40,319 nucleotides of DNA from an uncultured Clostridia bacterium (GTDB taxonomy: Bacteria; Bacillota; Clostridia; Christensenellales; UBA1242), in the NCBI GenBank assembly GCA_947584415.1, contig CANPWN010000007.1:1-40319 (forward strand), read 5' to 3'. Below the pieces are notes generated by a model, which saw nothing but the letters and a program-made list of their open reading frames with translations, had not been told where the DNA came from and did not search any database. The translations under genes and the position numbers were made by a program. Shown in pieces: positions 457 to 40,319 of this stretch. Each line of letters opens with the position of its first letter. The stretch's first letter is position 1.

Positions 457-484
457 AAAACCTCTGCCGATTGGCAGAGGTTTT
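457..484 (-). terminator. Rho-independent terminator of the left surface-protein gene
   Basis: AAAACCTCTGCC-AATC-GGCAGAGGTTTTT on the minus strand, directly after the stop codon (483-485). Confidence 0.85.
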
Positions 485-3251
485 ATATTGCGCTTGATGT
501 TGCTTTAAAATTTTTGTTTGTTAAATATGTTTCAACAGAAGTGGTTGTGACATTGCTGCTAGCCCACAAAAACCATTGGAGTATTGGCAGCCCTCCATTT
601 ATAGCGTCACCACATATCCATTCAGACCCTGTAAAACCAGTGTAATATGTGCTTGATCCCGAAGTTTTGATATATACCCCTGATATTTTTCTTGCAGCAC
701 CTGAACCAATGCATGTCCCAGTGATGGTTTCTCCAACTCTAATAAAATCACCAATAAAATAGGAATCAAAAATATCCAAAGTGCCTGAGTTTATAGCAAC
801 AAAAGCTGCTTGTGTGATATAGAAATCAATACCTTCCGGATGTTTTGTGCAGTCTATTGCGCAAGCACGGACAGTTAATGTTGAATTTGGTGCGACTTCA
901 CTTATTAGACCTGAAGCAACCTCAGCCTTTGTGCTTCCGCTTCTGTATATATTACTTAGCGTCACCACACCCACGCTTCTTCCAAACAACGAAGCATATG
1001 TTCTGTCTGAAATATTGAAATCAAAGAACATGATATCATGAATTGTGGCGTCTGTTATTTCATCAATAAAATAAGTTCCGGCGCTTTCCCCTTCTAGTTC
1101 AAGATTATACAAAATATAGCCTTGCCCATCAAACGTTCCGGTGAAGGTTTTAATTGTGTGAAGAACTTGGCCAGTGCAATCAATGTTGTTGTCTAAGAAG
1201 ATTTTGTCGGTTGAATTGAAAAGGCCATTGGCATTGGTGAAGTCCGACATAGCTTTTAATCCTGTGAAGTCTGTGATGTGATATGTTTCATCCGAAGCCT
1301 TGTAAATACCGGAAGAGGATGAAACAAAATTGTCAAATGTTATAATTGAACAAGTGTCATATTTTAAAGTTATGCACGGGCGAATGCCAATGTAATCAAC
1401 ATCATATGAAAAAGCCACTTGGAAATCTCCGCTCGCTTCAATAATATATGGCAAATCAAACTCTTCATAAGTTGAATTAAGATAATATTCACTATGTTTA
1501 TTTTTATACACCATAAGACGATTGGCTATAGCAAAATCTGACCCCTTCGACATTCTCACAGAATCATCAGTATATTTTGCAAACACACCTGAAGTCATGT
1601 CTTCATAAGTTGGAACATGAGCTTCTGTGACTTGGTCTGGATTAGCAGCAGTTAAATATTTTAAAAATGTTGATATCCAAGTTAATTGACAATTAGATGC
1701 TAAAATTAAGTCAGAAATAACCTTCGCTTCATTTGGCGGCACAGAAGTGTCCATCAAATACCATTTGATTGGTTCAACTCTAAACCATGTTTTTTGACCT
1801 GTGACCGCAGCTGCGCCATTACTATAAATTGAATCACTATCTACAGCATCTGCATTTCCTGAAACATATTTCTCCCCTTTAGAATTACTATATTCTGTCC
1901 AAATGTTATCACCAAATGTATATACTTTGCCAGTGGCTGCCATGGCAGCCGTGCTTATTCCTGAAGCATATGTCTGCGGATATTCCCCAAAATACGTATA
2001 ATGCAACTCATGTCCATTAACTTTTTCTGAATACCATGTAACTGATGTCTGCTCTGGTTCTGTTATTGTGACTTTGTAATTAAGTGTCAAACATGGACGA
2101 ATAGATATAGAAGAAGCAGTATCATCCACATATCCTACTTCGATAGGTCCCATAAAGCAACACCCATATAGTGTCGCTCCTGTCCCACTTATCTCTATTT
2201 CTTTTGTTATAAGCGAACGCGACATACAATTGGTTACTCCATTTCTATAGTCCGAAATACAATTTAGAAGCATTCCATGATTCGAAAGTGTAAAATCACT
2301 TGGTGAAGCCATCATTGAAGATTGTTGGGTTATATCATCATCACTAACATCAGCACTACCTTTATCTACTCCAGTTGCCCTATGTGAACGTAGATAATAA
2401 AGTCCAGAAGGGTCTGCATTTACACTATATTTATTGCGTTCATCATATGATAAAAGGTAAGCATAGTCAGATGTGTTTGTTCCACTTCCGTCTGATATAT
2501 TGCTATATGTATTGTTTTTGACTGTTTCATTTTTTATGACACTGTCTTTATATGATGAAAGTCCAGAGTCAGTAAGAAATGTGCCATTTAACCAAGTGCG
2601 AACATTGGAGCTACTCCATGAAGCATTTGTTCCAACGTGAGTTTTATTAAACGGAACATTGCTTGCAAGAGCAACATCTGAAATGACTTTTATTTCTTTT
2701 GAAGAAGTTAGGCTATTAGGATTTGTCCCATCAATTATCCACCACTTGATTGGTTCAACCTTAAACCATCTTTCTGTTCCATCTGAACCAACCATTGTCC
2801 CATCTTTAAATGTGTAATTAGAGTTAAATTTAGTTTGTTTTCCTGAAACATATTTTTGTCCGGAAAGACTATATTCTGTCCATATTGTGCTTCCCACGGT
2901 GTAAGTTTTTCCTGTTTTAGACATAGATGCCGTTGAACCAGAATAATATGTCTGAGGATAAGTGCCAAGTTCGGTGTAATAATATGTATTGCCGTTTAAA
3001 GTTTCACTTTTCCATGTTATGTTTGATGTGGTTGCCGCCTCACCAACATCTGAGATTGTGGACGGAGCGGAAGCCGTTGAAAAAAGATTTGAAATGTTTG
3101 GGAAGCAAAACATGGACAAAACAAAAGCCAAGGCGGATGAAAAAAAGATTTTCAAAAGCCCTGGCTGTTTTTGAAAATGTGGATAATTTTTAGTTAGGCA
3201 GTAAGGCTGCCCCCCCCCCCGGTGATATTTTGTTACAAAAAGTTTTTTCAT
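483..3251 (-). CDS. Large secreted surface protein: signal peptide, two DUF6273-like modules, beta-helix/GLUG-like C-terminal region
   Basis: 922-aa ORF; hydrophobic segment FFSSALAFVLSMFCFPNISNLFSTASA; two copies of the WY/KSExxNGxxxxYxxxGxYPQTY...WFKVEPIKWW module; FDGQGYILYNL beta-helix-like motif. Paralogous to 38134-40319. An N-terminal extension includes a G11 tract. Confidence 0.8.
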   Translation of the reverse strand: MKKLFVTKYHRGGGQPYCLTKNYPHFQKQPGLLKIFFSSALAFVLSMFCFPNISNLFSTASAPSTISDVGEAATTSNITWKSETLNGNTYYYTELGTYPQTYYSGSTASMSKTGKTYTVGSTIWTEYSLSGQKYVSGKQTKFNSNYTFKDGTMVGSDGTERWFKVEPIKWWIIDGTNPNSLTSSKEIKVISDVALASNVPFNKTHVGTNASWSSSNVRTWLNGTFLTDSGLSSYKDSVIKNETVKNNTYSNISDGSGTNTSDYAYLLSYDERNKYSVNADPSGLYYLRSHRATGVDKGSADVSDDDITQQSSMMASPSDFTLSNHGMLLNCISDYRNGVTNCMSRSLITKEIEISGTGATLYGCCFMGPIEVGYVDDTASSISIRPCLTLNYKVTITEPEQTSVTWYSEKVNGHELHYTYFGEYPQTYASGISTAAMAATGKVYTFGDNIWTEYSNSKGEKYVSGNADAVDSDSIYSNGAAAVTGQKTWFRVEPIKWYLMDTSVPPNEAKVISDLILASNCQLTWISTFLKYLTAANPDQVTEAHVPTYEDMTSGVFAKYTDDSVRMSKGSDFAIANRLMVYKNKHSEYYLNSTYEEFDLPYIIEASGDFQVAFSYDVDYIGIRPCITLKYDTCSIITFDNFVSSSSGIYKASDETYHITDFTGLKAMSDFTNANGLFNSTDKIFLDNNIDCTGQVLHTIKTFTGTFDGQGYILYNLELEGESAGTYFIDEITDATIHDIMFFDFNISDRTYASLFGRSVGVVTLSNIYRSGSTKAEVASGLISEVAPNSTLTVRACAIDCTKHPEGIDFYITQAAFVAINSGTLDIFDSYFIGDFIRVGETITGTCIGSGAARKISGVYIKTSGSSTYYTGFTGSEWICGDAINGGLPILQWFLWASSNVTTTSVETYLTNKNFKATSSAI
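3203..3220 (-). repeat. Homopolymeric G11 tract (C11 on + strand) in the 5' coding region; putative phase-variation tract
   Basis: + strand ...ggctgCCCCCCCCCCCggtga...; reads CAC CGG GGG GGG GGG CAG in frame on the minus strand. Confidence 0.85.
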
Positions 3252-3549
3252 TTTTCATTTTTCCTTTTTGTGGATAAATTACTTATTATTAGTATAATCG
3301 AAAGTTATAGAAAAGCAAAATAAAATGATATAAAACTACAAAAAAATGCATGCATTTTGCCAGGGCATCCCAAAAATGCCCACATTTCGGGAAGAGGTTT
3401 TTTAATTGTGAAAACAATCGTTGCCAAGTGAGATTGACAATAAAAAGAAAAAGGGCAGTCTGATGATTGTCCTTTTCCTTTTATTGTGAAGCATATCTCC
3501 TTCACAACTTTAATATGTGCGTTATTTAAAGTTTTATGCAAAATATTTT

Positions 3550-4749
3550 TTAAGTCATCCAATCACTATAAACCCCGTATCCTTTGCTTGGGTCAGACAT
3601 GAAAACATGGGTCACTGCGCCAACAAGTTTGCCGTTTTGGATGATTGGGCTGCCGCTCATCCCTTGCACAATGCCGCCTGTCAATTCCTTTAGGCGCTTG
3701 TCTTTGACACGGAACACAATACTTTTGTCGTCCGCCTTGGCTTGATATGAGGCCTTTATGATTTCAATTTCATACTCCTCTCTTATTCCGCTGACGCTTG
3801 AAACAATATAGGCTTTGCCCGGCGTTACCGACAACCTGCCGCCAAGTTTAATTGTCAAATTTGGGTCAATAAGCCCTTCCATGTCCGTAAGCGTTCCAAA
3901 CACGCCAAACTGCGTGCTTTTTTCAATTTGACCCTTTGGCGTGTCGCTCGTTAAAAAAGTGCATCTTAGTTGCCCTGGGCTATTGCGCTCGCTTTTCTCT
4001 ACGCCCAAAAGTTGACAATCAAAAACTTTGCCTTCGTCTGCCTCAACATTATTTTCGCCATCGGTTATTGCGTGGCCAAGCGCCGCAAAATAGCCGTTAT
4101 CTTTGCGGGCATATGTCAAAGTCCCCACGCCATTGACTTCATCTCGCACCCAAAGTCCAAGTTTATATTTTTGAGTGGATGCGTCTTTTTCACCTTTTAT
4201 TATCGCCTTATGCGGCTTGTTTGCCCTTAGATATGTCACCTCAAACTCGCCGTTATCACTCTCCTCAACAATTTGCTGCAAGTTTTCAAGAGAGTTAACC
4301 TTTATTCCGTTAACTTCGGTAAGCATGTCACCTTCGCGAAATTCAACATCCTTTTGCGTCCACTTTAAACCATCCTCAGTTTCAACCATCTTTTCGCTCA
4401 TCACAATTGCGCCTTTAGACGAAAGCGAAATGCCAATTGGCACGCCACCGAGATAAACCTGCTCTTCGTTCGAGCAAGTGACACGCATTTTTCTGATGGG
4501 AATAAGGCCAAAGAGTTTGAACTCTATTGTTCCCTCGCCCTTTTCACCCACCGAAACCTGTTCGGTGGTGTTCATCTTCGCTGTTACAAAACTGCCAAAA
4601 ACATGTTTTTGATTGGCAGATTCAATTTCATCATAGGTTGCAAGAAACCCCTCAGGCAAAGAAAAAATTTGCTTAAAACCAATATTTCCCACAAAAAGCA
4701 CTGCCACAAGCAGCGAAATTGTCAAAAGATAAAGCACCTTTTTTTTCAT
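3550..4749 (-). CDS. spoIVB: SpoIVB sporulation serine peptidase (PDZ + S55)
   Basis: ALGHAITDGE and VQGMSGSPIIQNGKLVGAVTHVF motifs, PDZ region, N-terminal TM; downstream of recN. ATG at 4749 (MKKKVLYL) has a GGAGG RBS and is preferred over the ORF-track start at 4785. Confidence 0.93.
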   Translation of the reverse strand: MKKKVLYLLTISLLVAVLFVGNIGFKQIFSLPEGFLATYDEIESANQKHVFGSFVTAKMNTTEQVSVGEKGEGTIEFKLFGLIPIRKMRVTCSNEEQVYLGGVPIGISLSSKGAIVMSEKMVETEDGLKWTQKDVEFREGDMLTEVNGIKVNSLENLQQIVEESDNGEFEVTYLRANKPHKAIIKGEKDASTQKYKLGLWVRDEVNGVGTLTYARKDNGYFAALGHAITDGENNVEADEGKVFDCQLLGVEKSERNSPGQLRCTFLTSDTPKGQIEKSTQFGVFGTLTDMEGLIDPNLTIKLGGRLSVTPGKAYIVSSVSGIREEYEIEIIKASYQAKADDKSIVFRVKDKRLKELTGGIVQGMSGSPIIQNGKLVGAVTHVFMSDPSKGYGVYSDWMT

Positions 4750-4794
4750 TTTGCCTCCAAAGATTAGTTTCTTTGCTTTTGGCAAAATTATTCT

Positions 4795-13902: not shown

Positions 13903-14544
13903 TCATTTTTGCACACCAAGATAAACCTGCGGAACTTTGCCATTTATGACAAACTCACAAATCAAAACCTGGGTGATAAAATCAACCTTTTGTGTGGCAA
14001 GTGGCAAAACAACGCTGACAGAGGCAGAAACATCAATATAAATTGACAATAGCGTGCTGTTAATTCCAGCAGATGAAAGTTGACTTGAAAAAGATGTGAT
14101 AATTGACCCTATTGGAACAAGTTGAACATTTACTTTTGGCCCAATACCAGACAGGGCGTTTATACCTGAAAAAGAACCCATTGGCACTTTGATAGTTTTT
14201 GGCATGTCATCAAGCATGATTTGTGCACTTGTTGAAAGTTGACGAGCAAAATAATTGACAGCAACGGGCTTTGCAACCACAGAAGCAACATTGCCATCAG
14301 AGGAATATTTGACATCTAAAAAGTCCTCATAGGTGTAATTATTCTCCTCCATCACCTCATAAATGGCATCACTGACAGCCGTTGTGGCAACTGAGTCGAC
14401 CTGTGCTCTTGAAACAGTGGCAACAAGAGGGCCGACAACAAAATGAAAATATAAAAAAGCAATAAAGATAACCAACAAAAAAATGCCAACAGCAATCAAC
14501 AATTTTGTTTTTATGCTCATTTTCTTTTGGCAAAATTTTCTCAT
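13903..14544 (-). CDS. yunB: Sporulation protein YunB-like
   Basis: 213 aa; N-terminal TM, VDSVATTAVSDAIYEVM, VPMGSFSGINALSGIGPKVNVQLVPIGS typical of YunB/SpoYunB. Confidence 0.85.
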   Translation of the reverse strand: MRKFCQKKMSIKTKLLIAVGIFLLVIFIAFLYFHFVVGPLVATVSRAQVDSVATTAVSDAIYEVMEENNYTYEDFLDVKYSSDGNVASVVAKPVAVNYFARQLSTSAQIMLDDMPKTIKVPMGSFSGINALSGIGPKVNVQLVPIGSIITSFSSQLSSAGINSTLLSIYIDVSASVSVVLPLATQKVDFITQVLICEFVINGKVPQVYLGVQK

Positions 14545-14682: not shown

Positions 14683-15039
14683 CTATTTTGTTTTTGATTT
14701 GAAGATAAGGGAAAACAAAAATGCAAAGCCGACTGCTGCGGCTATTCCGCCGGCGGTTGCTTCCAAGCCGCCTGTGAACGCACCCAAAAGTCCTATGCTT
14801 TTCACCGCGCCCATTGCACCCTTTGCAAGCGAAGCCCCAAAGCCAATAATTGGAACATTTATGCCAGCTTTGGCAAACTGGGAAATTGGCTCAAAAAGTT
14901 CAAAGGCTTGCAGCACAACACCAATCAAAACAAATGTGACAAGTATTCGTGCCGAAGTGATTTTTGTTGTTATTATCAGAATTTGTCCTATCATACAAAC
15001 AAGACCACCAATCAAAAACGCCCATAAAAAATCCATCAT
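14683..15039 (-). CDS. spoVAE: Stage V sporulation protein AE
   Basis: 118-aa membrane protein; FLWAFLIGGLVCMIGQILI...PIIGFGASLAKGAM; downstream of spoVAD. Confidence 0.92.
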   Translation of the reverse strand: MMDFLWAFLIGGLVCMIGQILIITTKITSARILVTFVLIGVVLQAFELFEPISQFAKAGINVPIIGFGASLAKGAMGAVKSIGLLGAFTGGLEATAGGIAAAVGFAFLFSLIFKSKTK

Positions 15040-16034
15040 TTACCTCCCGCCTCAATGACTATTGCATGGCTTATGCCTGGAATTGACTCCCCTTGTTGAG
15101 AGGCTGTTGTGCTCATGAGTGCGCCCGTTGGAACAAACAAAACGCGTTTTAATTCTCTCTTTTTGAGTTTTTTTATTATATAGCCATTTAAAACTGACGC
15201 GCTTGCACCACATCCGCTGCCGCCGCACATTGTGTCCTGCTCACGCGTGAAATATGAGTGGCCGCAATCAGAATAATTTGGGCCCAATTTTATGCCTTTA
15301 TCTTCCAATAAATCAACCAAAATTTCTGCCCCAAGTTTTCCTAAATCACCCGTCACTATAAGGTCATAATCAGTTGGTTTGCGCCCTGTTTCATTGAAAT
15401 GCGTGAAGATTGTTTCCGCCGCCGCCGGCGCCATTGCCGCGCCCATATTGTTGACATCGACAATGCCAAAATCAACAACCTTACCGAAAGTTGCCATTGT
15501 TATTTCTGGGCCTTTCCCTTCAAGCGACAACACGCTTGCCCCAGCCGCAGTCACTGTCCATTGTGAAGTTGGCACTCGTTGATTTCCAAGTTCCAGCGGA
15601 AAGCGGAACTGTCTTTCTGCAGTTGAAAAGTGCGAGCCTGTTGCACATAAAATATTGCCAAAATGCCCGCCATTGACCATCATTGCTCCCACTGCAAGCG
15701 TTTCTGCCATGGTTGAACACGCGCCAAATATGCCAAGATATGGCAGCGAAAAATCTCGTGCCGTGAAGGAAGAGGATATTATTTGATTTAATAAATCACC
15801 AGCAAGCATGAGGTTGATTTGGCTTGCAGTTAATCCTGCACTTTCAATTGCTCCTGTTACAGCCTGCTCAAACATCTTTCTTTCGGCAAGTTCATAGGTC
15901 TTTTCACCGAAGAGGTCATTTTTCATGACATAATCAAAATATGACCCAAAAGGTCCTGCCCCCTCTTTTGGCCCAACAATTGAATAACTGCCAATAATTT
16001 TTGGTCTGTTCCTAAATTCCACCGTTTGATTCAT
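15036..16034 (-). CDS. spoVAD: Stage V sporulation protein AD (thiolase-fold)
   Basis: Start MNQTVEFRNRPKIIGSYSIVGPKEGAGPFGSYFDYV; GACSTMAETLAVGAMMVNGG; DCGHSYFTREQDTMCGGSGCGASA. Confidence 0.95.
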   Translation of the reverse strand: MNQTVEFRNRPKIIGSYSIVGPKEGAGPFGSYFDYVMKNDLFGEKTYELAERKMFEQAVTGAIESAGLTASQINLMLAGDLLNQIISSSFTARDFSLPYLGIFGACSTMAETLAVGAMMVNGGHFGNILCATGSHFSTAERQFRFPLELGNQRVPTSQWTVTAAGASVLSLEGKGPEITMATFGKVVDFGIVDVNNMGAAMAPAAAETIFTHFNETGRKPTDYDLIVTGDLGKLGAEILVDLLEDKGIKLGPNYSDCGHSYFTREQDTMCGGSGCGASASVLNGYIIKKLKKRELKRVLFVPTGALMSTTASQQGESIPGISHAIVIEAGGK

Positions 16035-16489
16035 TAAAATAGCCCCACTATCCAATAAATAATTCCGACAACTATGCTGCTCACAACGCCGACAACAATG
16101 ACCGGCCCTGCAATTGTGAACATCTTTACGCATGTGCCATATATGATACCTTCGTGCTTAAACTCTATTGCTGGCGAGGAAATGGAATTGGAAAAACCGG
16201 TGATTGGCACAATACTTCCGCCGCCGGCAAATTTGCCAATCTTGTCATAAACACCAATGCCAGTGAGAAAAGACGCAAGAAAAATTAACACCACAAGTGT
16301 CCACGCCCATGCCGTTTGTTGGGACATGTATGGGAAAAGATAAAGAATAAGCATATCAATGCCCTGTCCTATCACGCATATCAGTCCTCCAACCCAAAAC
16401 GAATTGAACAGGCTTGGCCACGCTTTCGTTTTTGGAATTCGCGCTTCAACATAGCGGTTATAAGCCTCATTGCGCTTTTCTTGTTTCAT
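16034..16489 (-). CDS. spoVAC: Stage V sporulation protein AC
   Basis: FWVGGLICVIGQGIDMLI...GGGSIVPITGFSNSISSPAIEFKHEG; GGAGG RBS before ATG at 16489. Confidence 0.93.
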   Translation of the reverse strand: MKQEKRNEAYNRYVEARIPKTKAWPSLFNSFWVGGLICVIGQGIDMLILYLFPYMSQQTAWAWTLVVLIFLASFLTGIGVYDKIGKFAGGGSIVPITGFSNSISSPAIEFKHEGIIYGTCVKMFTIAGPVIVVGVVSSIVVGIIYWIVGLF

Positions 16490-17800: not shown

Positions 17801-17816
17801 CCCCGCTTTTTTTAGC
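17788..17816. terminator. Bidirectional terminator between the lipoprotein gene and sigF
   Basis: AAAAAAAGCGG-actaac-CCCGCTTTTTTT. Confidence 0.75.
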
Positions 17817-18534
17817 TTAATTTTTTCTTTAAACCATCCAAAATTTTGTTTTCTAACCTCGACACCTGCACCTGCGAAATGTGGAGCATAGCGGCAATTT
17901 CACTTTGCGTTTTGTCATAAAAATATCGCATTAAAATTATTGTTCTATCCCGCTTTGGCAGAGATGAAAGCATTTGCCTAATTGTTATTTTATTGATGAG
18001 TGCTTCGTCCATTTTGTCACAGTCAACTCGGTCAATCAGCATCAACCCGTCCTCGTCATCATCTTCAAGTGGCGAATATAAGGACACAGGCATGCGAGAA
18101 GAGTCCATTGCCATGACAATGTCGCCCTCGTCAACATTAAAATGCTTGGCAATTGTTTCTATTGATGGTTTAACTTTGTTTTCTGAATAATATGCGTCAA
18201 CAAATTTGTTGACCTTAATATTGAGCGACTTTATTGCTCGAGAGACTTTTATCATCCCATCATCCCTCATAAAGCGCTTAATCTCACCTATCACCATAGG
18301 CACAACATAGGTTGAAAACTTGACATTAAAATCAGCATTAAAGTTTTTTATCGCTTTCACAAACCCCAGACACCCAAGTTGATAAAGGTCATCATACTCA
18401 AGCCCTTTGCCCTGAAAACGCTTTATTATGCTTTTGATAAGCGGAGAATTTTCGGCTATCAGCGCATTTTTTGCCTCTTCATCTCCTTCCTGTGCAAGTT
18501 TGACAAGCCTTCGAACCTCAACACTTGCTAACAT
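17812..18534 (-). CDS. sigF: Forespore sigma factor SigF
   Basis: 240-aa sigma-70 family; EYDDLYQLGCLGFVKAIKNF, GEIKRFMRDDGMIKVSR, QSEIAAMLHISQVQVSRLE; downstream of spoIIAB. Confidence 0.94.
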   Translation of the reverse strand: MLASVEVRRLVKLAQEGDEEAKNALIAENSPLIKSIIKRFQGKGLEYDDLYQLGCLGFVKAIKNFNADFNVKFSTYVVPMVIGEIKRFMRDDGMIKVSRAIKSLNIKVNKFVDAYYSENKVKPSIETIAKHFNVDEGDIVMAMDSSRMPVSLYSPLEDDDEDGLMLIDRVDCDKMDEALINKITIRQMLSSLPKRDRTIILMRYFYDKTQSEIAAMLHISQVQVSRLENKILDGLKKKLS

Positions 18535-18977
18535 ATTTCGGGAGTTTGTGCGCTGCTTCCAAAAACCTTGGTCATCTCCACCTGCAAGCCTTTATCACCA
18601 TTTTTGCTCAATTTAAGTTCATCCATAAACGACTCCATGATGGTAAAGCCCATGCCACTTCGCTCTTCGTTCGGTTTGGTGGTATAAAACGGCTCTCTTG
18701 CCTTTTCCATGTCCTTAATGCCAATTCCTTTGTCGCTTACAATGATTTTAACGGAATTGTTTTCCGCCTCAACACGCAGGCAAACCTCACCATCACCGTT
18801 TGGATAGGCATGCACAACAGCATTTGTCACCGCCTCTGAAACGGCTGTTTTGATGTCATTTATTTCCTCAAGACTTGGGTCATATTGCAAACAAAAGGCG
18901 GCAACCACTGTTCTTGCAAACATTTCATTGATGCCAATTGCTTTAAATTTGATTTCCATGTAATTCTTTTTCATCAC
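18528..18977 (-). CDS. spoIIAB: Anti-sigma F factor SpoIIAB
   Basis: 149 aa; GHKL kinase motifs VSEAVTNAVVHAYP, VSDKGIGI, ERSGMGFTIMESFMD. Confidence 0.95.
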   Translation of the reverse strand: MMKKNYMEIKFKAIGINEMFARTVVAAFCLQYDPSLEEINDIKTAVSEAVTNAVVHAYPNGDGEVCLRVEAENNSVKIIVSDKGIGIKDMEKAREPFYTTKPNEERSGMGFTIMESFMDELKLSKNGDKGLQVEMTKVFGSSAQTPEIC

Positions 18978-22993: not shown

Positions 22994-23022
22994 TTGACTA
23001 TTTTTTTGCTAAAGCATATACT
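22994..23022 (+). promoter_or_regulatory. Sigma-A-type promoter TTGACT-17-TATACT
   Basis: -35 at 22994-22999, -10 at 23017-23022; ATG of the ABC gene at 23030. Confidence 0.65.
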
Positions 23023-23029
23023 TTATGAT

Positions 23030-24772
23030 ATGTCAAAAATATTTAAAGCATTTAAACCTTTGGACTGGGTTTTATTATTCTTCGCTTTGTGCCTTTTGGG
23101 GGCACAAGTTTATTGCAACCTCACCTTGCCTGAATATATGGGCGCAATAGTCAAATATCTGCAGATGGGTGCGTATGCCCATGATTTAGGTCTGTTTTGG
23201 AAGGATATCCTCATAAACGGCGGGATTATGCTCTCTTTTGTGGCAGCAATTTATGTGTCAACAATTCTTGTTTCTTATCTTAGCGCAAGAGTAATCACAA
23301 CCGTTATGAGCAGAGTTCGTCACAATGTTTTTGAAAAGGTCAACAATTTTTCCATGAAGGAAATTGGCTCTTTTTCCATTGCTTCGCTCATCACCCGCTC
23401 GACAAATGATGTCACTCAACTTCAAATGGTGCTTATTATGATACTCAATGTTGGACTCACCGCTCCTATCACGGCTGTGTGGGCAATAATTAAGATTTTA
23501 AACCTTTCGTCTGGTCTTTCCATTGTGACCGCTGTGTCCATTGTTGCACTTTTACTTTTGGTGGCAATGATGTTCATCTTTGTTGTGCCTAAATTTAAAA
23601 AAGTGCAGTCCCTTACCGACAAAGTCAACCTTGTAACAAGAGAAAATTTGACCGGCATAAAAGTTGTGCGTGCTTTCGGTGCTGAAAAAATGCAAGAGGA
23701 CAAATTTGACGGCGTCAACACCTCTTTGACAAAAACAAACATCTTTATTCACCGCGTGGCAGGAATTATGAGCCCTGGAATAACACTCATCATGCAGGGC
23801 ACTTCTCTTGCACTCGTTTGGCTTGGGGCATATCTCATCACAAATGGCAGTATTGATTTTTCAACACTCACTGAATTTACTCAATACGCAATGCAGGTCA
23901 TCATGGCATTTATGATGGTTTCCATGCTCATGGTGATGATTCCACGAGGCCTGGTTTCAGGACAAAGAATTAAAGAAGTCCTCTCTTCAACTTCCGCTAT
24001 CACAGACGGCGCGCTTCAGCATCAACCTTCCATGAAAGGCACAATTGAATTTAAAAATGTTTCATTCAAATACCCTGGCGCAGATGACTATGTTTTAAAG
24101 AACATCTCCTTCACTGCAAATAAGGGCGAAACAGTGGCGTTTATTGGCTCAACGGGGTCTGGCAAATCAACTCTTATAAATCTTGTGCCAAGATTTTATG
24201 ACTGCACAGATGGAGAAGTGTTTGTTGATGGCGTCAATGTTAAAGATTACAAACTTCATGACTTGCACAACAAAATTGGCTATGTGCCTCAAAAGGGAAT
24301 TTTGTTTGCTGGGTCAGTCAAAGAAAACATCAAGTATGGCAACGAAAATGCAACAGATGAAGAGATTGAAAAGGCACTGAAAATTTCTCAGTCAAACTTT
24401 GTTTTCTCTATGCCAGAAGGACTTGACTCACATATTGCACAAGGCGGATGAAATGTGTCTGGCGGGCAAAAGCAACGTCTTTCAATCGCCAGAGCCATTG
24501 TCCGAAACCCTGAAATTTTAATTTTTGATGACAGTTTTTCTGCCCTCGACTATAAAACCGACAAGACACTGAGAAAGGCGCTTAAAACTCACACAAAAGG
24601 CGTTACCTGTCTTATTGTTGCCCAGCGAATTGGAACAATTCATAATGCAGACAAAATCATTGTGCTAAATGAAGGCAATATGGTCGGAATTGGCACTCAT
24701 GATGAACTTATGGCCTCCTGCCCTGTTTATCAGCAGATTGCTTTGTCACAATTAAAAAAGGAGGAATTATAA
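23030..24772 (+). pseudogene. ABC exporter half-transporter (TM287-like, degenerate catalytic site) interrupted by an in-frame TGA
   Basis: ORFs 22994-24451 and 24455-24772 are in the same frame, separated only by TGA at 24449-24451: ...SHIAQGG*NVSGGQKQRLSIARA...ILIFDDSFSALD. May instead be recoded or a sequence error. Confidence 0.75.
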
Positions 24773-38133: not shown

Positions 38134-40319
38134 TTACCACGGGGTTGTCGATTCCGTAAAACCATAATCCTTCAATCTTGCCAAAACTTCTGCAGATGTA
38201 TGCATATTTGGAGCTACCCAACTTTCTATCTTATCTAAATTAGAGATATCTCCAATTTTTGCAACTAACGGATGATATGGAAGACCAAGCATAAAATTAT
38301 CATTATATGCCCATGGCATTGTGCCATTAGTAAAATTCCAATAGACTTTACGTGAATCAACAAAAAATGAAGTAAAACCCTCTTTGTCCGCTACACCCAC
38401 AGGAAATTCACCACCAACTTCACCCGAGTCAATACCAAAAAGATAGGTTTCAACAATATCTCCTTTTATACCACTGTTGCTTGTTGTCATTGGAAGCAAA
38501 GTGTTATAAAAGCCATATGCAAATGAAAACATAATGTTTACAGTTGTATAAACACTTTCAATCGCTCCAATAAACGCAGAACAACCTTTAATATTTGGAA
38601 TTGAACTCATCGCATAAATGTCTGGATTTTTTTCAATAAGTGAGCATCTCATAATAGAAACATTATAATTTGTAGCATCAACAATAAAGCCACTTACTAA
38701 ACCCAAGAAAAGAGCAGAACGTTCACAATAGACATTTGCTAATGTGATTTGAGCATAATACATAGTATTTGTAAACACACATCCGCCTATCAATGCACTT
38801 GGGGCTTCCCATGTGCTTGTTCCTATATATAAATTCAAAAAATTAATGTTACCAAGCGACATTCCGGTTGTTCCCCAAATGAAACACGCCATAGGTGCTG
38901 CCTTATCAAATTCAGCCACAGTGCCTTGATATGCAGGAGCATTGTCAATGCAGTTTAAATTGATGATGGAGTGACCTTGTCCGTCAAAATCTCCGCTGAA
39001 ATATTTGATGGCTCTAAAATCAAATTCTAAAGCAGTGCAGTCAATGTCATTGTCAAGATAAAATGTCATATCATAAAAACAATCTAGGCCGTTATAAGAG
39101 TAAGAATAATCCGACATTGCTACCAGGCCAGTGTAATCAGTGATGTGATACGAGCCGTCAGAGGCTTTGTAAATGCCGGGATAATAGTTAATTCCTCCAT
39201 CAAAAGAGAGCTGTGTTTCTCCTGTTTTAGCTGTATACAATAATGTCATTGCAGGACGAACTCCTTTAGTAGTTAGTATATTACCTTCCGAAGTTATTCC
39301 AGAAGAATTAACAGTCCCTACATAATACTTCCAATTGGAAGAATTGGAAGATGTAAATCCTGCTGAACGCAAACAATAATCGGCTGTCCCTTTTCTATAA
39401 TCCGTAGTATTATCATCAAACAGCCACGAATAGTTTGCAATGGCAAAATCTGAAGGTGATGCTTTTAATGAATCTCTTACTTCGTTCCCGTCTCTAACCG
39501 AATGTGAACGCAAATAATAAATGCCATCAGAATCTGTCGCAGGACAAAATGTTTCTGTTGCTTCTGTATAAGATAAAAACCAAACATAATCTTGCGTTGC
39601 AGTTCCTGTTCCATCTTTATATTGACCTGACACATTATTTTTTAATGTTTCATTTTTTATTATTGTATCATAATAAGTAGACAAATTTGAATTTATAGAA
39701 AAAGTGTCTTGCAACCATGAGCGCATATATGAATTTTTCCATGTATTACCTTTTGAGTAGCTCGAACTATACGGCACGCTATCTGTTAAAATAACATCTG
39801 AAATAACTTTTATTTCTTTTGAACTAGAAACATCGTATGGGTTTGTTCCATCAATTATCCACCACTTTATTGGTTCTACTTTAAACCATCTTGTAACATT
39901 AGTGGTGCCAGTACTTGTTCCATCTTTAAAAGTCGCGCTTGTTCCATGAACATCAGTTCCACCTCTTACATATTTTGCTCCACCATAACTATATTCAGTC
40001 CAACTTCTTATAGAAATTGAACCACCTCCAGTTGTATTATTATATTTTGCTATTTGATAAACTTTACCAGTCGTCTGTGCACTATTGATATTAATCCTAG
40101 AATCAGGAACATATGTTTGTGGATATTCCCCAAGATACGTATAGTAATAAGTGTGACCATTTAAATTTTCACTATACCACTTAATATTGCCTCCTATTGG
40201 CCAACCAACCGCTGAGATTGTTGATGGAGTGGAAGAAGTTGAAAAAAGATTTGAGATGTTTGGAAAACAAAATAGTGACAAAACAAAAGCCAAGGCTAAT
40301 GAAAAAGTTGTTTTCAAAA
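38134..40319 (-). CDS. Large secreted surface protein, paralog of 483-3251 (5' end probably outside window)
   Basis: LKTTFSLALAFVLSLFCFPNISNLFST signal segment, one DUF6273-like module, beta-helix-like C-terminus GIYKASDGSYHITDYTGLVAMSDY...FDGQGHSIINL. The ORF-track start is a TTG at the window edge, with the frame still open. Confidence 0.78.
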   Translation of the reverse strand, partial: LKTTFSLALAFVLSLFCFPNISNLFSTSSTPSTISAVGWPIGGNIKWYSENLNGHTYYYTYLGEYPQTYVPDSRININSAQTTGKVYQIAKYNNTTGGGSISIRSWTEYSYGGAKYVRGGTDVHGTSATFKDGTSTGTTNVTRWFKVEPIKWWIIDGTNPYDVSSSKEIKVISDVILTDSVPYSSSYSKGNTWKNSYMRSWLQDTFSINSNLSTYYDTIIKNETLKNNVSGQYKDGTGTATQDYVWFLSYTEATETFCPATDSDGIYYLRSHSVRDGNEVRDSLKASPSDFAIANYSWLFDDNTTDYRKGTADYCLRSAGFTSSNSSNWKYYVGTVNSSGITSEGNILTTKGVRPAMTLLYTAKTGETQLSFDGGINYYPGIYKASDGSYHITDYTGLVAMSDYSYSYNGLDCFYDMTFYLDNDIDCTALEFDFRAIKYFSGDFDGQGHSIINLNCIDNAPAYQGTVAEFDKAAPMACFIWGTTGMSLGNINFLNLYIGTSTWEAPSALIGGCVFTNTMYYAQITLANVYCERSALFLGLVSGFIVDATNYNVSIMRCSLIEKNPDIYAMSSIPNIKGCSAFIGAIESVYTTVNIMFSFAYGFYNTLLPMTTSNSGIKGDIVETYLFGIDSGEVGGEFPVGVADKEGFTSFFVDSRKVYWNFTNGTMPWAYNDNFMLGLPYHPLVAKIGDISNLDKIESWVAPNMHTSAEVLARLKDYGFTESTTPW

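Follow-up and report, generated by a model that had tools for sequence, protein, structure and literature searches.

A predicted poly-G phase-variation switch in the leaders of a family of secreted, partly DUF6273 proteins in an uncultured Clostridia-class bacterium

The window, the whole stretch of 40,319 nucleotides analysed here, is the entire contig C7 of a genome (G000) of 903,074 bases in 21 contigs, which is 99% complete. Its minus strand carries a gene for a protein of 922 amino acids with an uninterrupted run of 11 G residues between the Shine-Dalgarno (SD) sequence and the signal peptide. Re-reading of the minus strand from ~3260 to 3190 agreed letter by letter with an earlier sequence-only reading of the site, including the G11 tract and two start codons 7 nt apart, ATG-A (3258) and ATG-B (3251). 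The following features were assigned.

3318-3313, minus strand: -35-like TTGCTT, spacer of 16 to the -10-like TATACT
3291..3296, minus strand: -10-like TATACT, position conserved among paralogues (comparison and inspection)
3269..3277, minus strand: first copy of TTATCCACA, between the -10 and the SD
3262..3266, minus strand: Shine-Dalgarno AAGGA, duplex -5.8 kcal/mol
3256..3258, minus strand: ATG-A, out of frame with respect to ATG-B, in this copy only, 2 nt from the SD, probably weak
3249..3251, minus strand: ATG-B, the conserved start of the type-A leaders, 9 nt from the SD, ON at 8/11/14 G
3210..3220, minus strand: G11 tract, the predicted switch (sequence reading and shuffle test)
3190..3196, minus strand: TAACTAA, overlapping-frame stops that terminate both wrong frames just past the tract, kept in nearly all copies
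3178..3186, minus strand: second copy of TTATCCACA, past the tract, read as codons Y-P-H
3153..3155, minus strand: downstream TTG, a possible tract-independent start, SD not consistent across copies
3102..3149, minus strand: hydrophobic region of the signal peptide, LKIFFSSALAFVLSMF (sequence; paralogues similar)
483..3251, minus strand: open reading frame (ORF) of 922 amino acids from ATG-B, ON at 11 G; leader, signal peptide, DUF6273 domain(s) and beta-rich C-terminal part
38134..40317, minus strand: second paralogue in the window, DUF6273 at E 7e-15, separated by the contig end from its leader and presumed tract

A run of this length was not expected by chance. G9 gave 3 overlapping matches in the window compared to 0.12 expected from shuffles, 0 of 100 shuffles reached 3, and no other run of at least 7 G or C was found in the window. 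ATG-B lies 31 nt and ATG-A 38 nt ahead of the tract, which is followed directly by CAGCCTTACTGCCTAACTAA. By frame arithmetic, the open frame is reached from ATG-B with 8/11/14 G and from ATG-A with 10/13 G, while 12 G leaves both starts out of frame; at 11 G translation from ATG-A yields MKNEKTFCNKISPGGGAALLPN before a stop. Recomputation thus returned the same values as the earlier reading for 10, 11 and 12 G, and the stops that it had placed in both wrong frames just past the tract are present in CTGCCTAACTAA. The N-region ahead of the hydrophobic core of the window protein is unusually long (~34 residues).

A search of the genome with the leader, in line with the check proposed in the earlier reading, revealed many paralogous places. 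The genome harbours 14 tracts of at least 9 G, of which 13 are in this leader; all tracts of at least 10 G are within these leaders, and the fourteenth is a G9 at C1:35566 outside the family. Each of the 13 leaders carries an uninterrupted G10-G12 between SD/ATG and signal peptide (five with G10, six with G11, two with G12). The common layout consists of promoter-like boxes, SD, ATG, 22-31 nt, the G10-12 tract, a segment with dual stops and the signal peptide. Two types of pre-tract leader were distinguished, type A (AAAAAGGA..ATGAAAAAACTTTTTGTAACA..CACC) and type B (GCGAGGGAAGTATGCAACATTTTGTTACCCACC), and the post-tract segment reads QPYCLTK-N/S-YPHF.. and then the signal peptide in nearly all copies. 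Three further family bodies are cut by contig ends, at the end of C7 (window 38134-40317), the end of C13 and the start of C16, and an additional leader, on C11, is also cut by a contig end. Counting these pieces, the family comprises about 15 genes. Altogether, contigs C7, C11, C13, C16 and C20 break off in these leaders or signal peptides. The contig ends C11:1-4 and C13:25891 coincide with a G tract or fall within one, which would be expected if tract length were mixed or hard to sequence.

The open frame right after the tract is identical in all 13 leaders, and comparison of the post-tract segments showed that all are open in this one common frame, while the wrong frames terminate soon past the tract. 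The bodies are intact in 12 of the 13 genes (391-977 amino acids), the remaining one being cut by a contig end. Since the species is represented by one genome, tract lengths were compared among paralogues. Translation from the conserved ATG is predicted to be ON in five copies (C6_22947, C9_25372, C10_26002, C14_23444 and C7_3220, the window copy), every one with G11, and OFF in eight (C1_27257, C1_47281, C1_98605, C3_7028, C12_8105, C13_9120, C14_25499 and C20_52). The lengths that give the ON state differ for C13_9120 and C20_52, because their leaders are 1 nt longer and 1 nt shorter, respectively, than the others. At G10-12 in 13 loci the repeat reaches at least the length linked to hypermutation and lies far above chance. 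It is situated in the 5' coding region, where its length modulo 3 is predicted to decide between the full-length protein and an early stop, and it varies between paralogues (10, 11 or 12 G) while the ORF is otherwise intact in 12 cases. Reversible switching accounts better than decay for the intact bodies that follow OFF starts. Furthermore, GGG accounts for 110 of the 654 glycine codons in these ORFs (17%) but for 100% of the glycine codons in the tracts, which argues that the homopolymer is kept and not glycine. In the short segment past the tract, substitutions show a weak codon-position bias (synonymous/nonsynonymous 85/143 in frame 0 compared to 72/117 in frame 1), as also in the comparison against the congener G119 (6/32 codons). 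This weak substitution test was not taken as proof; the coding nature of the leader therefore rests on the open frame, the SD and the start.

The strength of each SD was calculated as hybridisation with the 16S tail, using a generic anti-SD sequence of our choice. Before the leader ATG the values ranged from -5.8 to -8.8 kcal/mol in the family. In the window the SD duplex is spaced 9 nt from ATG-B and 2 nt from ATG-A, so that ATG-A should initiate no more than weakly; among the other type-A leaders, the duplex lies 8-9 nt from the start found 30-31 nt ahead of the tract. The earlier reading had proposed a graded switch with three states, in which 10 G is ON via ATG-A, 11 G ON via ATG-B and 12 G OFF. 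The frame arithmetic behind it is correct, but the survey of start codons showed an upstream ATG out of frame in only one of the 13 leaders, that of the window; the two ATGs of C1_27257 and C20, 6 nt apart, share one frame, and C9 and the type-B leaders have a single ATG. Together with the poor SD spacing of ATG-A, this led us to reject the three-state model as a property of the family, and we consider it improbable. The 7-nt out-of-frame spacing is unique to the window copy, which the earlier reading had not recognised. We favour a switch with two states that uses ATG-B, translation being ON at n = 8/11/14 and OFF at other lengths, with a possible weak contribution of ATG-A at 10 G in the window copy.

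Another proposal, which the earlier reading had named as grounds for refutation, is that translation begins at the downstream TTG (LKIFFSS..), the leader being an untranslated or dispensable relic and the tract having no regulatory effect. Such a start would yield a signal peptide of ordinary length, and C1_27257 and L127 also carry an in-frame ATG just ahead of the signal peptide. However, the SD is missing before the TTG, with energies near zero, in 7 of 11 copies, while that of the leader ATG is strong; the post-tract frame is open in all copies and in G119, and a functionless pure G10-12 would hardly be retained in 13 diverged copies. A start at the TTG is thus very improbable. In the C1_27257 leader (L052) and in L127, an extra segment with TTGCTA-N17-TATACT precedes the signal peptide in both species and is followed by the in-frame ATG; by its sequence, it is possibly a second promoter downstream of the tract.

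It is conceivable that transcriptional slippage or ribosomal frameshifting on the G run yields a low, steady output from OFF copies, the tract setting a level instead of a heritable switch. Long G runs are slippery, and such a process can coexist with slippage in the DNA. Against it, no conserved stimulatory hairpin was found past the tract, as the CAA-type copies do not retain the GGCAG..CUGCC stem seen in the window copy, and the differing DNA lengths of the paralogues argue for slippage in the DNA itself; we regard this explanation, too, as very improbable. The leader might instead serve mainly as a recombination joint, its shared 5' sequence allowing exchange of promoter, leader and body between loci. 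Relationships of leader and body do disagree. The body of C7_3220 is closest to that of C13_9120 (85%), its pre-tract part to that of C1_27257 and its post-tract part to that of C10_26002, and the C10 and C6 leaders are 98% alike pre-tract but not post-tract, a pattern resembling exchange or conversion of leaders between loci. This test of mosaicism is weak with 11 sequences (Mantel, pre-post r 0.21, p 0.16; post-body r -0.07), and a joint explains the shared flanks but neither the pure G run nor the dual stops. As the main role of the leader it is rather unlikely, although recombination and phase variation are not mutually exclusive.

It is most likely, with a probability of about 0.86, that the tract is a translational phase-variation switch through which slipped-strand mispairing switches ~15 secreted, partly DUF6273 proteins independently. 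The slipped-strand mechanism of the earlier reading is thereby strongly supported, as judged from sequence comparison, and extends to 13 leaders. Single Gs would be gained or lost frequently through DNA polymerase slippage. Ribosomes starting at the leader ATG would translate the GGG codons and continue into the signal peptide when n = 8/11/14 (shifted values apply to two copies), and the protein would be exported, whereas at other lengths translation would end soon past the tract. The window copy, at 11 G, is predicted to be ON. With ~15 genes switching independently, each cell would have its own set of secreted DUF6273/beta-rich proteins. The benefit would plausibly be evasion of binding by phages or immune factors, or altered adhesion in the gut.

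The proteins themselves were analysed by profile and structure searches. A profile search found DUF6273 (PF19789) in the 922-amino-acid ORF at residues 200-390 (E 1.2e-9). Both window proteins exceed the DUF6273 cut-off (38.7 and 55.7 bits compared to 23.5), and the genome has 11 matches; the three shorter leader-bearing proteins (391-441 amino acids) and some others showed none. In published work, DUF6273 has been assigned to the C-type-lectin fold (PMC10743442), and in gut phages diversity-generating retroelements target it (PMC10743442, PMC11792537). A model of the domain (pLDDT 79.5, pTM 0.85) matched viral models including DUF6273 proteins in a structure search (best E 1.4e-5). Among PDB structures no entry scored below E 0.7, a variable protein of Treponema (2y3c) being found at E 2.1, and a sequence search of the PDB with the domain profile returned nothing. 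The C-type-lectin fold is thus given here as reported (PMC10743442), the model not confirming it. The model of the whole protein (pLDDT 46) is usable only for the beta-rich residues ~640-775. Visual inspection of the proteins revealed no wall or membrane anchor; the designation 'surface protein' in the earlier reading is reasonable for a secreted protein.

The sequence TTATCCACA, the bacterial DnaA-box consensus, occurs as a direct repeat in the leaders, in the presumed 5' UTR and again past the tract. Of its 36 exact copies in the genome, 21 are in these leaders, about two per leader. One may speculate that the leader, with its promoter, paired TTATCCACA boxes, SD and ATG, G tract, dual stop and signal peptide, forms a mobile switch module that recombination transfers between unrelated bodies, and that DnaA binding at the paired boxes ties expression to the replication state, but we consider this combination unlikely. 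Three TTATCCACA boxes also lie within ~100 bp in an AT-rich intergenic stretch at G000 C10:4299-4402 (L222), a candidate oriC or DnaA-binding cluster.

To our knowledge, most examples of phase variation at many loci through simple repeats come from mycoplasmas and from Gram-negative pathogens adapted to a host. The lic genes of Haemophilus influenzae have CAAT tetramers in the 5' coding region and several possible starts, the alternative starts giving graded levels. The graded multi-start parallel drawn in the earlier reading does not hold for this family, since the second out-of-frame start is found in 1 of 13 copies and is badly spaced. Closer in outline are the opa genes of Neisseria, about a dozen paralogues for surface proteins of the outer membrane, each with a repeat in its 5' leader peptide and switched independently by frameshifting. 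There the repeats are CTCTT pentamers, whereas here poly-G tracts precede DUF6273-type proteins in a MAG lineage of the class Clostridia. In Bifidobacterium breve UCC2003, a gut Gram-positive, coding tracts of G11/G12 separate a signal-sequence ORF from the remaining part of sortase-pilus genes, their length decides the frame, and variation of length in the population has been measured (PMC9187656). Those tracts follow the Sec signal in two pilus operons, whereas the present ones, with predicted variation between cells, lie ahead of the signal peptide in 13 paralogues. In the Gram-positive Listeria, the surface-protein gene inlA has a poly(A) homopolymer close to its 5' end, and reversible frameshifting was measured there with fusions (PMC2831843); it is a single gene, whereas G10-12 occurs here in a multi-gene family. 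The kind of switch is thus known, while the organism and the gene family are new.

In the genus set of 112 genomes, own included, G119, which by its matching contig and leader was judged to be the rabbit-gut MAG Lapin-008 bin38, was the only other genome with a homologous leader (47% identical as protein over ~65 residues, E 1.9e-9); its tract is G9 with the ATG out of frame, and hence OFF. A DNA search for the leader across the genus gave only short, chance-like matches outside G000, a pattern match in G124 was an unrelated G8, and pattern matches across the order were mostly single per genome and chance-like. No match to the leader was found in IMG/VR, which gives no support for viral spread. 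The arrangement of ATG, G10, basic stretch and signal peptide is also present, independently, in L085 (congener, ON) and L067 (G050, another family of the order, OFF); ATG-G10 near a signal peptide was seen in unrelated genes at L067 (G050), L085 and L078.

Independently of this leader, many congeners carry poly-G/C tracts between promoter-like boxes. The pattern TTGAC-N{1,11}-G8-N{1,11}-TATAAT was found in 31 of the 112 genomes and its C8 version in 50, while the control with the pattern reversed matched none of the 112. These tracts (loci L162-L221) have 8-11 G/C inside -35/-10 spacers of mostly 15-20 nt, and many downstream ORFs are lipoprotein- or signal-peptide-like; one lipoprotein (MQKTKSRKIWAV..) has C8-C10 with spacers of 16-17 in four genomes. 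None was found in the window's own genome. The spacers of the congeners probably represent genus-wide promoter phase variation, and they suggest that phase-variable genes are abundant in this genus. A search of the papers covered here for phase variation in Christensenellales found no report.

A gut-type, uncultured Clostridia-class lineage of ~0.9 Mb would thus devote ~15 genes to predicted phase variation, in a genus that uses poly-G/C promoter spacers widely. Large cell-to-cell variation of the surface or secretome is predicted within a species seen as one consensus MAG, and in annotation OFF copies would be called pseudogenes or given wrong starts. Elsewhere in the window, an ABC transporter ORF (22994-24770) has one in-frame TGA (QGG*NVSGGQKQR) near 24449, after which the frame continues. 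The sporulation genes spoIVB, yunB, spoVAD, sigF-like and spoIIAB, at 3550-4785, 13903-14544, 15036-16133 and 17812-18977, were also observed in this 0.9-Mb genome.
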